Position numbers and translations under genes: made by a program
DNA from: Pseudalkalibacillus salsuginis
Lineage (GTDB): Bacteria; Bacillota; Bacilli; Bacillales; Fictibacillaceae
NCBI RefSeq assembly: GCF_021646685.1
Contig: NZ_JAKJHW010000001.1
Coordinates: forward strand, 930,001-994,000
DNA length: 64,000 nt
Reading direction: 5' to 3'
Notes under the pieces: model-generated
The model's database searches: none
What the model was told of the DNA's origin: nothing
The model's input: the letters and a program-made list of their open reading frames with translations, nothing else
Part shown: in pieces, positions 18,922-28,542 of the stretch
Layout: each line of letters starts with the position of its first letter
Numbering within the stretch: position 1 is the stretch's first letter

Positions 18922-20121
18922 TTAAAATAACTTAAGTTTACCTTTTTTCACAACTAGTGGGATTCCACCTAATAAGAACAAGTAGCGGTTGTCGATGATT
19001 TTCTTCATCGCAGCAGCTGTTGCCCCATAAAGCTTCTTATTCCCTACTTTACCGATTGCTTCCCCTTTACCCAATGAAGCAACTGTACCTTTAATTTCTG
19101 GTACGAAAGTCTCTGTCTTGGTACCATTAATCAGCGCTTTCAAGTTACGGCCAACCGTGAATGCTTGTTGGATCGCAATCTGTGCTGTTGGCGGGTATGG
19201 GCGATTGATCTCTTCATTTATGATCAATGCACAGTCACCGACGATGAAAACATGGTCTTTACCAGGGGCACGAAGGTCACCTTCAACCTTGATCCGGCCG
19301 CGCATCGTTTCAAAACCAGAGTTCTCAACGATGGAATTCCCACGAATTCCAGTCGTCCAAACGATCGTATCAGCTTTGATTTCCTCTTCTTCCAATACAA
19401 CCCCGTCTGCTGTCACTTCTTTAATCGGTGTACCAAGCATGAACTCGACACCTTTGCTTTCAAGAAGGTTAACCGCGTATTCAACAAGCTCTTCATCAAA
19501 ACCTGGAAGTACAGTCGGAGCTGCTTCAGCACAGATCAGACGTACTTTTTCACGAGGAACATCAAATTCTGTGCAAAGCTCAGGGATACGGTCAGCCATC
19601 TCTCCAATAAATTCGATTCCAGTGAACCCGGCTCCGGCAACTACGATTGTAAGCATACTGTCAGATGGATTCGGCTCATTATTGTAGCTGGCGAATTGAT
19701 ATTCGATGTGTTCACGGATTTTACGAACAGTGTCCACGCTTCGGATATTGAACGCATGGTCCTTGACACCAGGGATTCCGAACGTTTCAGACTCGAAACC
19801 AAGTCCAATGACGAGATAATCGTAACTAAGCTCGCCGTTCTCCAATTTGACAGTCTTTGTGTTGTCATCGATAGAAATAACAGTATCTTGGACGAAATTG
19901 ATACGATTCGAGTCAATGACGTCTTTTATCGGCATACGTGTACGATCGTGGTGCAATGTACCTGCGGCAGGCTCATGCAACCAAGTTGTTTGGTAGTGGT
20001 AATTATGTTTGTTGACTAGCGTGATTTCCGCTTCGTTCATCCCAAGTTCTTTCGTGAGACGAGTTGCTGTCATTATTCCGCCATATCCGGCACCAAGAAT
20101 GACGATTTTTGGTCTGCTCAT
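18922..20121 (-). CDS. yumB: Type II NADH dehydrogenase-like oxidoreductase YumB
   Basis: This FAD/NAD(P) two-dinucleotide-fold enzyme of 399 residues is of the NDH-2 family. VILGAGYGG at the N-terminus binds [18 protein letters not shown] near 165-180 binds NAD(P)H, and VFIVGDCA near 300 closes the FAD site. Homologues pass electrons from NADH to menaquinone at the inner membrane face without pumping protons. The ATG at 20121 follows AGGTGGAG; the longer frame to 20163 has no ribosome site. It is divergent from yumC across a 270-base gap. Confidence 0.9.
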
Positions 20122-20394
20122 TTCTCTCCACCTCTTCTTCAAGTAGTGTGTGATTTTGGACAATCATACTATTTATAGATTTTTCCCAAAAGTTTGTTAC
20201 ACATTTCACGTACTATTGCGTAATATGTCACATTTTAGACGAATTTGTCCCACGGTCAATCTTAGACCTTTTTTAGTTTTTTTTCAACCCATAGCCGGAA
20301 CTTTTTTACGATCCTAACTATTACTCCCCCTTTTCTAAATCGATTATTAAAGGTTATAATGGGTACAAACAGATAACCGGGGGTGTAGAATGAT

Positions 20395-25883: not shown

Positions 25884-25918
25884 AAAAAAAGACCTCTTCC
25901 AATTGAAAGAGATCTTTT
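25884..25918 (-). terminator. Terminator of yuzB
   Basis: On the minus strand AAAAGATCTCTTTC and GGAAGAGGTCTTTT pair around AATT and continue into a run of T, 22 bases after the yuzB stop. Confidence 0.85.
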
Positions 25919-25939
25919 CCGGATATCTATTAACACCCG

Positions 25940-26176
25940 TTAAAACATCGGGTTATCTTCTAAATATTGATAAACATTGTCGACAAGTTCCTCAGGTGTT
26001 TCACCTGGAACGTATTCACCGTTCACTAATGCGTACGGTGATCGAAAGCATTGTCCACAGTTCCCGAGACAACCATATTCAATAACATCGAGATTCGAAT
26101 CTTGTTCAAGTACTTCCCTTGCACGTTGAGATCCGTTAGCCAGATTGCTGACACAAAATTCGATGATTGGCCTCAT
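25940..26176 (-). CDS. yuzB: YuzB (DUF1450) protein
   Basis: The 78-residue protein matches the YuzB/DUF1450 family. It has conserved cysteines in EFCVSNL and in [10 protein letters not shown], a ferredoxin-like (2Fe-2S) arrangement, and ends [11 protein letters not shown]. Its function is unknown, although a thioredoxin-like ferredoxin role is plausible. AAAGGTGG lies before the ATG at 26176. It is divergent from the TetR-YutJ gene. Confidence 0.88.
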
Positions 26177-26269
26177 TTTCAACCACCTTTCTTTCCATCC
26201 TTATCCTACATCCTTACACTGAATTCCGTCAACATACGTGGCTTGTCAACATCATTTTATAGATAAGTG

Positions 26270-26298
26270 TTGTAGATTTGTCACATTTTCGTTATACT
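26270..26298 (+). promoter_or_regulatory. SigA-type promoter for the tetR-yutJ fusion
   Basis: TTGTAG (26270-26275) and TATACT (26293-26298) are separated by exactly 17 bases. The start site would fall near 26304, inside the adjacent palindrome. Confidence 0.6.
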
Positions 26299-26299
26299 A

Positions 26300-26319
26300 C
26301 AGATGACCACGGTCATTTG
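26300..26319. promoter_or_regulatory. Candidate TetR operator
   Basis: CAGATGACCACGGTCATTTG is a 20-base palindrome with eight of ten pairs matching and a perfect ATGACC/GGTCAT core. It overlaps the predicted transcription start, an ideal place for autorepression by the TetR protein encoded 90 bases downstream. Confidence 0.55.
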
Positions 26320-26405
26320 CTTGGATAATCGGGTATTCATATCCCTATTTCGTACAGGTATATGGCCTATTTCTTTTTTAACATATAAAGGAGATGCAGC
26401 TTGAA

Positions 26406-28043
26406 GTGAACCGTAACAAAAAAAGGAATTACACAGAAGAAAACATCGTGAAAGCTGCATTGGAACTTTTCTATGAAAAAGGATATGCCCATACAAGCGT
26501 CAAGGAAATAACTGACAGAGCTAATATTGCAAAAGGTACGTTTTTCAATTATTTCCCTTCAAAAGAGGATTTAATGCAGCATTTTGCTGAAGAACGCCTT
26601 CATACTCTGAGTATTTTTCTCGAAAAAGGGTATATTTTTTCACAACCCTACCAAAAACAAATGGAGGTTTTAGTCCGTCATCTCTTAACGTATTATGATC
26701 TCGATTCGAATTTCACGAAAGATCTCTGGGCAACTGTAATGAAAGAAGAAAGCCCTCTTATCAAGCATTGGGGGACGATTCTTAACAGGGGAAGCACGAG
26801 AGGTGAAATAAGTTCACACATTGACTTGACTTCATGTGCCCATGTTTGTAACAGCCATTTCCATTATGTTTTGTCGACCTCACGCATCGACGACACGAAG
26901 GAATCTTTGATTCAGCGGGTCATGACATTATTGGAAGTCAGCATAGAAGGATTTCATGAAAAAAGGGGAAATGACAGAATGAAAAGACTCGTTATCTTAG
27001 GTGCTGGATACGGTGGAATGAAAATCATCCATGGATTGCTTGACTCTAAGCTTCCAGAAGACATTCAGATCACATTAGTAGACCGTCTGCCGTACCATTG
27101 TCTAAAAACAGAATACTACGCTCTTGCAGCGGGTACAATTTCAGATCATCACATCCGGGTCAGTTTTCCAGAAGACCCTCGTGTCATTGTCAAGTACGGC
27201 GAGGTGACAAATATCGATCTGAACAACAAGAAAATTGAATTTGAGGATGATGATTCGCTTGAATATGATGACCTCATCATCGGTTTAGGATGTGAGGATA
27301 AATATCACGGTGTCCCTGGTGCACCCGACCATACTTTAAGCATACAGACAATCGATAAATCACGTGAAACCTATCAAAAACTGAACAATCTGCCGCCTAA
27401 AGGTGTAGTCGGCGTAGTCGGTGCAGGCTTGAGCGGTGTTGAACTCGCCAGTGAACTTCGCGAAAGCCGCCCGGATTTGTCGATCAAGCTTTTTGACCGC
27501 GGTGAAACAATCCTTTCTACCTTTCCTAGGCGCCTGAGCAATTACGTCCAGAAGTGGTTCATCGATCACGGTGTGGAGATCGTCAACAGATCCAATATAA
27601 CACGTGTTGAACCGAATATTTTATATAACAATGAGGAATCGATTCCTTGTGATGCAATTGTCTGGACCGCTGGAATCCAACCGAACCGTCTTGTACGGGA
27701 ACTAGATGTAGAAAAAGATGATGCCGGCCGTGTCGTCTTATCACCACACCACCATCTTCCGGATGATCAACATGTCTTTGTGGTAGGCGATTGCGCAAGC
27801 TTGCCTCATGCACCAAGTGCCCAGCTCGCTGAAGGTCAGGGAGATCAAATCGTGGAAGTCCTGCTGAAGATTTGGAAGGATGAACCACTTGAGGACCTCC
27901 CTAAGATCAAGCTTAAAGGTGTGCTAGGTTCACTTGGTAAAAAACACGGTTTCGGTATGATGAAAGGAACGGCTCTGACTGGCCGTGTCCCAAGGCTTTT
28001 GAAATCCGGCATTCTATGGATGTACAAATATCATACAAATTAA
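26406..28043 (+). CDS. yutJ: TetR regulator fused in frame to YutJ (NDH-2-like FAD oxidoreductase)
   Basis: One uninterrupted frame encodes two proteins. Counting from ATG 26394, residues 10-60 form a TetR HTH (SVKEITDRANIAKGTFFNYF) and 60-190 a helical ligand domain. From residue 196 (ATG 26979) begins [14 protein letters not shown], a complete YutJ/NDH-2 enzyme with its FAD motif, a second VVGVVGAGLSG dinucleotide motif and VFVVGDCA. AAGGGG lies ten bases before ATG 26979, so YutJ may also be made alone. GTG 26406 is preferred as the first start because AAAGGAG touches ATG 26394. In B. subtilis yutJ stands alone after yuzB. Either a true fusion or two genes that have lost the stop between them is possible. 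Confidence 0.85.
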   Translation: MNRNKKRNYTEENIVKAALELFYEKGYAHTSVKEITDRANIAKGTFFNYFPSKEDLMQHFAEERLHTLSIFLEKGYIFSQPYQKQMEVLVRHLLTYYDLDSNFTKDLWATVMKEESPLIKHWGTILNRGSTRGEISSHIDLTSCAHVCNSHFHYVLSTSRIDDTKESLIQRVMTLLEVSIEGFHEKRGNDRMKRLVILGAGYGGMKIIHGLLDSKLPEDIQITLVDRLPYHCLKTEYYALAAGTISDHHIRVSFPEDPRVIVKYGEVTNIDLNNKKIEFEDDDSLEYDDLIIGLGCEDKYHGVPGAPDHTLSIQTIDKSRETYQKLNNLPPKGVVGVVGAGLSGVELASELRESRPDLSIKLFDRGETILSTFPRRLSNYVQKWFIDHGVEIVNRSNITRVEPNILYNNEESIPCDAIVWTAGIQPNRLVRELDVEKDDAGRVVLSPHHHLPDDQHVFVVGDCASLPHAPSAQLAEGQGDQIVEVLLKIWKDEPLEDLPKIKLKGVLGSLGKKHGFGMMKGTALTGRVPRLLKSGILWMYKYHTN

Positions 28044-28053
28044 ACCTTACCTC

Positions 28054-28094
28054 AGGGCTGTCCCCTTTGTATCTTACACTTTGGGATAGCCCTT
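28054..28094 (+). terminator. Terminator after tetR-yutJ
   Basis: AGGGCTGTCCC and GGGATAGCCCT form an eleven-position stem with one mismatch, followed by TTCAC. It lies ten bases after the stop. Confidence 0.7.
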
Positions 28095-28278
28095 TCACTT
28101 TACAGATATTTCATTGTATATTTACATCGATTATTATTATTTAAGGAAGGGTAATTGAGAAAAGGGCAGCACCTGGCCGAATCTGCCAAAATCCTTCATA
28201 CTGCTTATTTCATACACTTTTTAAATGTGCTACGATAAAAAATGAGGATGAACAGCTTTTAACAATAGCATTTTTTCA

Positions 28279-28293
28279 TGAAAATGATTATAA
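28279..28293. promoter_or_regulatory. Candidate Fur/PerR box before yutI
   Basis: TGAAAATGATTATAA agrees at 13 of 15 positions with the 7-1-7 Fur box and also at 13 of 15 with the PerR box. It overlaps a TATAAT -10-like element at 28289-28294, about 30 bases before the yutI start. Confidence 0.45.
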
Positions 28294-28320
28294 TAAAGAT
28301 TAAGAAAGGGGTAGATATTT

Positions 28321-28542
28321 ATGCGTGAACAAGTTGAAGAGGTACTTGATAAATTACGACCTTTCCTGCTTCGTGATGGTGGTGACGTTGAGCTGGTAGA
28401 TATCGAAGACGGAATCGTCAAAGTTCGACTGATGGGAGCATGCGGAAGCTGCCCAAGTTCAACCATTACATTAAAAGCAGGTATCGAGCGTGCATTGCTT
28501 GAAGAGGTTCCTGGTGTAACTGAATTAGAACAAGTATTTTAA
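28321..28542 (+). CDS. yutI: NifU-like Fe-S scaffold protein YutI
   Basis: This 73-residue protein is the NifU C-terminal (Nfu) domain alone, with Cys41 and Cys44 in GACGSCPSS that together hold a cluster in a dimer. It carries Fe-S clusters to target enzymes such as lipoyl synthase, which is also encoded in this window. GAAAGGGG precedes the ATG. A candidate iron- or peroxide-regulatory box overlaps its promoter region. Confidence 0.93.

Follow-up and report, generated by a model that had tools for sequence, protein, structure and literature searches.

Can an enzyme act as the repressor of its own gene, and can that same gene still supply the enzyme in a free form? This question is raised by a locus in Pseudalkalibacillus salsuginis, where a regulator of the TetR family and the flavoenzyme YutJ are encoded in one open frame. 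We studied this locus within a window of 64,000 nucleotides (the whole stretch of DNA analysed, whose positions are used throughout), and compared it with loci in which yutJ is likewise fused to a TetR part (fused loci) or stands without it (unfused loci).

A regulator and an enzyme in one open frame

The TetR part and the YutJ flavoenzyme, each of them complete, share a single open frame on the forward strand (26394-28043; 549 aa if counted from the first ATG), and no stop codon lies between the two parts in this frame. Such an uninterrupted fusion had been proposed in a first-pass annotation of this DNA, and it is borne out by the open frame, by matches to Pfam and by its retention in relatives. 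The fusion is likely to start at GTG 26406, which would give 545 aa up to the stop at 28043. We prefer this codon to the first ATG because the Shine-Dalgarno sequence AAAGGAG (26387-26393) stands directly against the ATG but 12 nt ahead of the GTG, and because genus relatives begin at the same residue, be it with GTG, TTG or ATG. The features of the locus are collected in Table 1.

Table 1. Positions of the features of the fusion locus in the window
Feature	Position	Strand	Basis
yuzB (DUF1450), divergent neighbour	25940..26176	-	PF07293
Promoter of the fusion gene, TTGTAG - 17 bp - TATACT	26270..26298	+	Read from sequence
Putative self-operator, perfect palindrome ATGACC-AC-GGTCAT	26303..26316		Core in 51/51 fused loci
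Shine-Dalgarno of the fusion protein, AAAGGAG	26387..26393	+	Sequence; duplex -9.1 kcal/mol with GTG 26406
TetR-YutJ fusion gene, 545 aa + stop	26406..28043	+	Open frame, Pfam, conserved fusion
TetR part, residues 1-191, helix-turn-helix and ligand-type domain	26406..26978	+	TetR_N, AlphaFold2 helices, dN/dS
Internal Shine-Dalgarno AAAAGGGGA within TetR codons	26961..26969	+	AGG codon fixed, duplex energy
YutJ part (354 aa), probably also made separately from the internal start	26979..28043	+	Pyr_redox_2, NDH-2 alignment, ATG in 46/46
yutI, NifU-like downstream neighbour	28321..28542	+	PF01106

Seven Pfam families match the fusion at E <= 0.001, among them TetR_N (PF00440; residues 14-58, E 9.3e-17, 61 bits, the cut-off being 24) and Pyr_redox_2 at residues 194-475 (E 1.5e-36, also above its cut-off). 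The AlphaFold2 model, built from a 24-row alignment (mean pLDDT 80.6, pTM 0.58), predicts two folded bodies, with nine helices up to residue 184 and a connecting stretch (186-190) of pLDDT below 50; the mutual placement of the two bodies is unreliable, and residues 505-526 and 541-545 also fall below pLDDT 50. Rfam, searched for RNA elements, gave no match in 25900-28400.

A putative self-operator that accompanies the fusion

The predicted promoter combines the -10 hexamer TATACT (26293-26298) with a weak -35, TTGTAG (26270-26275, 3 mismatches). Scored by script, a -10 with at most one mismatch is found in 48 of the 51 fused loci, and a -35 with at most two mismatches in 36 of them. Five bp after TATACT begins a palindrome which had been read as a self-operator at 26300-26319; the palindrome itself stands, its position being corrected to 26303-26316, and its presence on the fusion promoter is confirmed at the level of sequence. 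The core TGAC-N4-GTCA occurs within 300 bp upstream in 51/51 fused loci (identical genes removed), 40 of which have the longer TGACC-N2-GGTCA, and is absent from the same interval upstream of unfused yutJ starts, both in the original set (0/66) and after 13 loci were added (0/79, where one locus with a separate TetR, L068, counts as unfused and carries its operator 644 bp upstream, before that TetR). Shuffled upstream sequences contain the core in about 0.3% of cases. In the 79 unfused loci, the best site departs from the core at one position in 5 cases, at two positions in 54 and at three in 20. Another locus, L143, carries the core further away, 550 bp upstream.

The spacing is equally regular: the palindrome begins 5-8 bp past the best -10 hexamer in 46/51 fused loci (TATAAT in 38) and thus covers the expected transcription start (+1). 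Such a position over the transcription start is a common one for steric repression. Furthermore, the DNA-reading helix of the TetR part is nearly invariant, with positions 42-48 and 50-53 conserved in at least 90% of 40 rows. Since the core separates fused from unfused loci so completely and the helix that would read it hardly varies, these observations support an autogenous repressor-enzyme. The same reading is supported by Shouchella lonarensis (L072), which is without the TetR part and holds only a relic palindrome with one core base altered, the Shine-Dalgarno sequence and ATG of its yutJ being kept.

A search for the operator in the form TGACCNNGGTCA gave two sites in the P. salsuginis genome: the fusion promoter and a position inside a 494-aa frame that we take to be a type I methyltransferase. 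The form WTGACCNNGGTCA, whose W excludes C- or G-flanked sites, was searched in 16 relatives and gave 60 rows, 30 of them with loci and thus available for placement by a rough ORF caller. Ten of these 30 sites were called intergenic, of which eight are fusion promoters (L149, L150, L158, L159, L160, L166, L167, L175), one lies just upstream of another TetR gene (L151) and one downstream of another TetR frame (L153). The other 20 were called inside frames, wrongly so for L157 and L171, both of which are the fusion promoter of G003; in G003 and G006 the operator in the searched form occurs solely at the fusion promoter. With two mismatches allowed, three genomes gave 29, 21 and 23 sites against 12, 14 and 12 in a reversed control, so weaker targets are possible.

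The TetR gene of L151 (891-1478, reverse strand, genome G388) stands alone, has a similar reading helix (IAKGTFFNYFP) and carries ATGACC-AT-GGTCA at 1501, just upstream of its start. Its protein is a possible relative of the fused TetR, judging from sequence, and its position beside a similar palindrome lends further support to autogenous repression by the fusion.

A conserved internal start for YutJ

The internal ATG, its position corrected to 26979, is preceded by AAAAGGGGA at 26961-26969, a Shine-Dalgarno sequence that had been pointed out ahead of YutJ and that proved to be conserved in relatives. A set of 46 fused loci was compared, with three duplicates removed beforehand and near-identical strains still included. 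YutJ opens with ATG in 46/46 of them, and AGG stands five codons upstream in 46/46. Among 171 columns in which at least 95% of rows share one residue (Met and Trp aside), this is the sole column with a single codon, while elsewhere in the fused genes 58 of 1198 arginine codons are AGG. The duplex of the internal Shine-Dalgarno with the 16S tail ranges from -8.4 to -12.8 kcal/mol in 51/51 loci (mean -9.4), similar to that of stand-alone yutJ starts (mean -8.9, n=75). Other in-frame ATGs average -3.9 kcal/mol (n=535), although 7.3% of them reach -8.4, which counts against the distinctiveness of the internal site. Across eight genus genomes, the 8 codons leading up to the internal ATG show synonymous differences of 0.086 versus 0.495 gene-wide, this window being the 7th lowest of 537. 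We take this codon constraint as reflecting selection for internal initiation.

What such a gene would produce differs from the choice offered by the first-pass annotation, namely one 62-kDa protein or a 22/39-kDa pair. Because translation meets no stop between the parts, a free TetR of 22 kDa is not to be expected other than by proteolysis; as read from its sequence, the gene can give a fusion of about 62 kDa (from its length) together with an internally started YutJ of about 39 kDa. In eight Shouchella-kind loci (L042, L043, L045, L046, L075, L076, L106, L108) the Shine-Dalgarno identified for the fusion has a weaker duplex (-2.9 to -6.9 kcal/mol), and free YutJ may therefore exceed the fusion there. 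Programmed frameshifting at the A-run before the internal Shine-Dalgarno was considered as a way to free the TetR part and rejected, the run not being kept outside the genus.

Spread and history of the fusion

As to whether the same architecture recurs in related genomes, a point raised together with the original reading, the fused frame was found in 8/8 genomes of the genus (77-100% identity, our own included) and is retained down to 52% identity. In the family, matches at E <= 1e-45 come from 33 of 34 genomes; 25 of these have YutJ alone, and the fused ones are the 8 genomes of the genus. In the order, 349 of 397 genomes match at E <= 1e-70, and at least 38 of the 397, from seven family codes (f1, f3, f6, f8, f36, f43, f46), are fused when a match from query residue 1-6 and a single open frame of at least 542 codons are demanded. 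Beyond the order, one fused genome besides our own was seen among 299 in the class (E <= 1e-180) and our own alone among 299 in the phylum (E <= 1e-170), under limits so strict that weaker fusions could be missed. Among named genomes, 13 of 39 loci are fused. They belong to Shouchella (seven), Salsuginibacillus (two), Sinobaca (one) and three relatives within the genus that bear the names Alkalihalobacillus sp., Bacillus sp. and Rossellomorea aquimaris.

Mapped onto an 85-row YutJ tree, the fused state requires 6 changes, compared with a mean of 28.7 for shuffled labels. TetR and YutJ distances correlate across 40 fused rows (Mantel r 0.835, with 0/2000 permutations as high), and mean identity in these rows is much lower for TetR (42%) than for YutJ (72%), a difference that counts against the explanation proposed below. 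Grouping the fused rows with five presumed losers (45 rows against 37) was not rejected (p-AU 0.42), for a group that was picked after the tree was seen and with three far rows dropped. The pattern fits an old fusion with several losses; transfer or repeated origin is also possible.

A detached TetR within 1500 bp upstream was found in one of 67 unfused loci, that of Bacillus sp. JCM 19041 (L068). There the operator, TetR and YutJ are all kept, with TetR and YutJ in different frames and the TetR stop overlapping the YutJ ATG. The split may be real or a draft error, and it counts against a need for fusion: either physical joining may be dispensable, or the draft may be wrong there. The same search in 13 further unfused loci returned L185, L187 and a 25-residue stretch in L182. 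In L185 and L187, which belong to an unfused genus, the TetR gene lies beyond yuzB on the other strand and is 28% identical to the fused TetR; it was discarded as a detached partner, as its 76-78 bits with the fused-TetR profile fall within the 40-88 of other TetRs.

Proposed mechanism and alternatives

In the mechanism that we propose, dimers of the TetR part would bind TGACC-N2-GGTCA and block transcription, by which the protein would limit its own level. Autorepression of this kind is highly probable given the distribution of the palindrome. The mRNA would yield the fusion and free YutJ, with no free TetR, an outcome that the codon pattern before the internal ATG makes likely. That both hold together, and the gene thus specifies an autogenous repressor-enzyme as well as a free enzyme from the internal start, is in our judgement reasonably probable. 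This explanation is supported by the two parts diverging in step, as the Mantel correlation suggests, and by an internal start whose ATG and AGG are fixed, whose Shine-Dalgarno resembles that of stand-alone yutJ in strength and ahead of which synonymous change is depressed.

How the enzyme could influence the repressor is a more tentative matter. The state of the flavoenzyme (its flavin redox, NAD(P)H, ferredoxin, quinone or membrane contact) might loosen the TetR part from DNA, and more enzyme would then be made while the enzyme is working or drawn off DNA. By analogy with the proline utilisation flavoenzyme PutA, such gating is plausible, if not something we would presume. An extended form would be a redox rheostat, in which flavin redox or partner state (ferredoxin, Fe-S supply or quinone) decides whether the fusion binds DNA, and dimers that pair a long with a short product tune repression at the gene's own promoter; this strikes us as unlikely on balance. 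No cysteine is conserved in the TetR part, 18 of 40 rows being without any, and a thiol switch is therefore unsupported.

The most serious alternative is that the TetR part represses its promoter in answer to a small molecule bound by its ligand domain. YutJ would then leave DNA binding unaffected, and the joining would do no more than fix the ratio of regulator to enzyme. The TetR part is indeed complete, with its own ligand-type helices, and within the genus (dN/dS, NG86) the ligand-type domain evolves fast relative to the helix-turn-helix (0.13 vs 0.06), as in ligand-specific TetRs; the whole TetR part stands at 0.11 (median of 28 pairs) and YutJ at 0.03, from the 5 pairs alone that gave usable dS. 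The unjoined parts of L068 point the same way. Yet the joined state is kept across many genera, though a single stop would split it, which counts against this alternative without proving coupling. We regard this alternative as a genuine possibility about which we are somewhat doubtful.

Internal Shine-Dalgarno-like sites can pause ribosomes, with a strength that is disputed. The codons before YutJ could accordingly be kept for pausing between domains, or for the protein sequence, in a gene that makes one product and has no internal YutJ start. This is rather improbable: neither the ATG nor the AGG codon varies, their place and strength are those of a stand-alone yutJ start, and in Shouchella lonarensis the same Shine-Dalgarno and ATG are the only start that yutJ has. 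Still less probable, by a wide margin from anything we would expect, is a palindrome read by some other regulator above a TetR part that no longer binds DNA, as the palindrome tracks the presence and absence of the TetR part, L068 keeps it ahead of its separate TetR, and the helix-turn-helix is nearly invariant and under purifying selection. An assembly or sequencing artefact joining two genes is ruled out for practical purposes by the conservation of the same fused frame in many separately sequenced genomes.

Relation to known systems

Enzyme-repressor fusions as such are already known, and PutA offers the most useful working model for this one. According to one account of PutA, this flavoenzyme carries an N-terminal DNA-binding domain, is an autogenous repressor, and shifts from DNA to the membrane once its flavin is reduced (PMC5293562). 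Trifunctional PutA and TetR-YutJ are alike in placing a DNA-binding domain on a flavoenzyme, with a putative self-operator in the latter. They differ in their parts, which are unrelated domains, PutA being built from a ribbon-helix-helix (RHH) domain and PRODH/P5CDH and the fusion from TetR and Pyr_redox_2, and in what is established, redox switching and membrane binding being known for PutA whereas the fusion is known here from sequence. The PRODH, P5CDH and RHH domains are absent among the seven Pfam families matched at E <= 0.001, and the fusion is therefore not a PutA. PutA is not known to have a conserved internal start.

With TetR autorepressors, the fusion shares TetR_N, an all-helical body and, as far as sequence tells, a palindromic putative operator at its own promoter; unlike them, it is fused to an enzyme, and its TetR part falls below the curated cut-offs of all 22 NCBIfam models matched at E <= 0.001. 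Unlike B. subtilis YutJ and the NDH-2 enzymes (YjlD, C. thermarum NDH-2), it is attached to a TetR part and lies under a palindrome of its own; in the 67 to 80 unfused loci covered, neither is joined to yutJ. Among the matches listed in open-access literature, no TetR-YutJ or TetR-NDH-2 fusion was described.

If the proposed mechanism is true, the PutA principle of an enzyme that represses its own gene would have arisen a second time and independently, here from the widespread TetR scaffold and a flavoenzyme of respiratory type, and would have been retained in several families of the order. With its conserved internal start, the gene would also be a clear example of two nested proteins encoded together in a bacterium. 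Additionally, the fusion would offer a handle on the role of YutJ, as whatever lifts the repressor would report what YutJ senses or reduces.

The enzyme part and its neighbourhood

The enzyme had initially been labelled as NDH-2-like. This holds for the alignment, the YutJ part aligning over its full length with NDH-2 chains (best 4nwz, E 6e-34; also YjlD), and for the flavoenzyme body with its two dinucleotide folds, as Pyr_redox_2 shows, and leaves its identity uncertain, as the best structural match by Foldseek is a YutJ chain in a model with the ferredoxin Fer (9a5s_A, 68% identity to the enzyme part). The title of that entry, 'Integrative model of YUTJ-FER by crosslinking MS and deep learning', suggests that YutJ contacts ferredoxin; neither YutJ nor ferredoxin is named in the main text of its presumed sources (PMC11383924, PMC10090944). 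Whether the electron partner is a quinone, as for NDH-2, or a ferredoxin is uncertain. The quinone-site motif of NDH-2 is AQxAxQ, and the YutJ part reads PSAQLAEGQG at the aligned position, with AQxA kept and the next Q shifted. The C-terminal helix shows no striking amphipathicity (its moment of 0.48 is exceeded by at least five stretches of the YutJ part), and the chain end has low model confidence, so there is no clear membrane helix and a membrane anchor is unsupported.

The neighbours are those of B. subtilis yutJ, which together with the 68% identity fits a YutJ orthologue. Divergent yuzB lies upstream in 51/51 fused and 73/78 unfused loci with room, and yutI downstream in 42/49 and 70/79, respectively. 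Cysteine-rich yuzB and NifU-like yutI suggest an Fe-S or ferredoxin setting, and both also adjoin unfused yutJ. The C...CxxxCxxC pattern of YuzB presumably resembles that of small thioredoxin-like ferredoxins, and YuzB is a possible redox partner of YutJ. In B. subtilis, a published study reports that DnaA associates with the yuzB-yutJ intergenic region in vivo and that a region inside yutJ is bound in vitro (PMC4447404). Elsewhere in the window, a second NDH-2-like frame of 413 codons lies on the reverse strand (19003-20145) and is 35% identical to the YutJ part.
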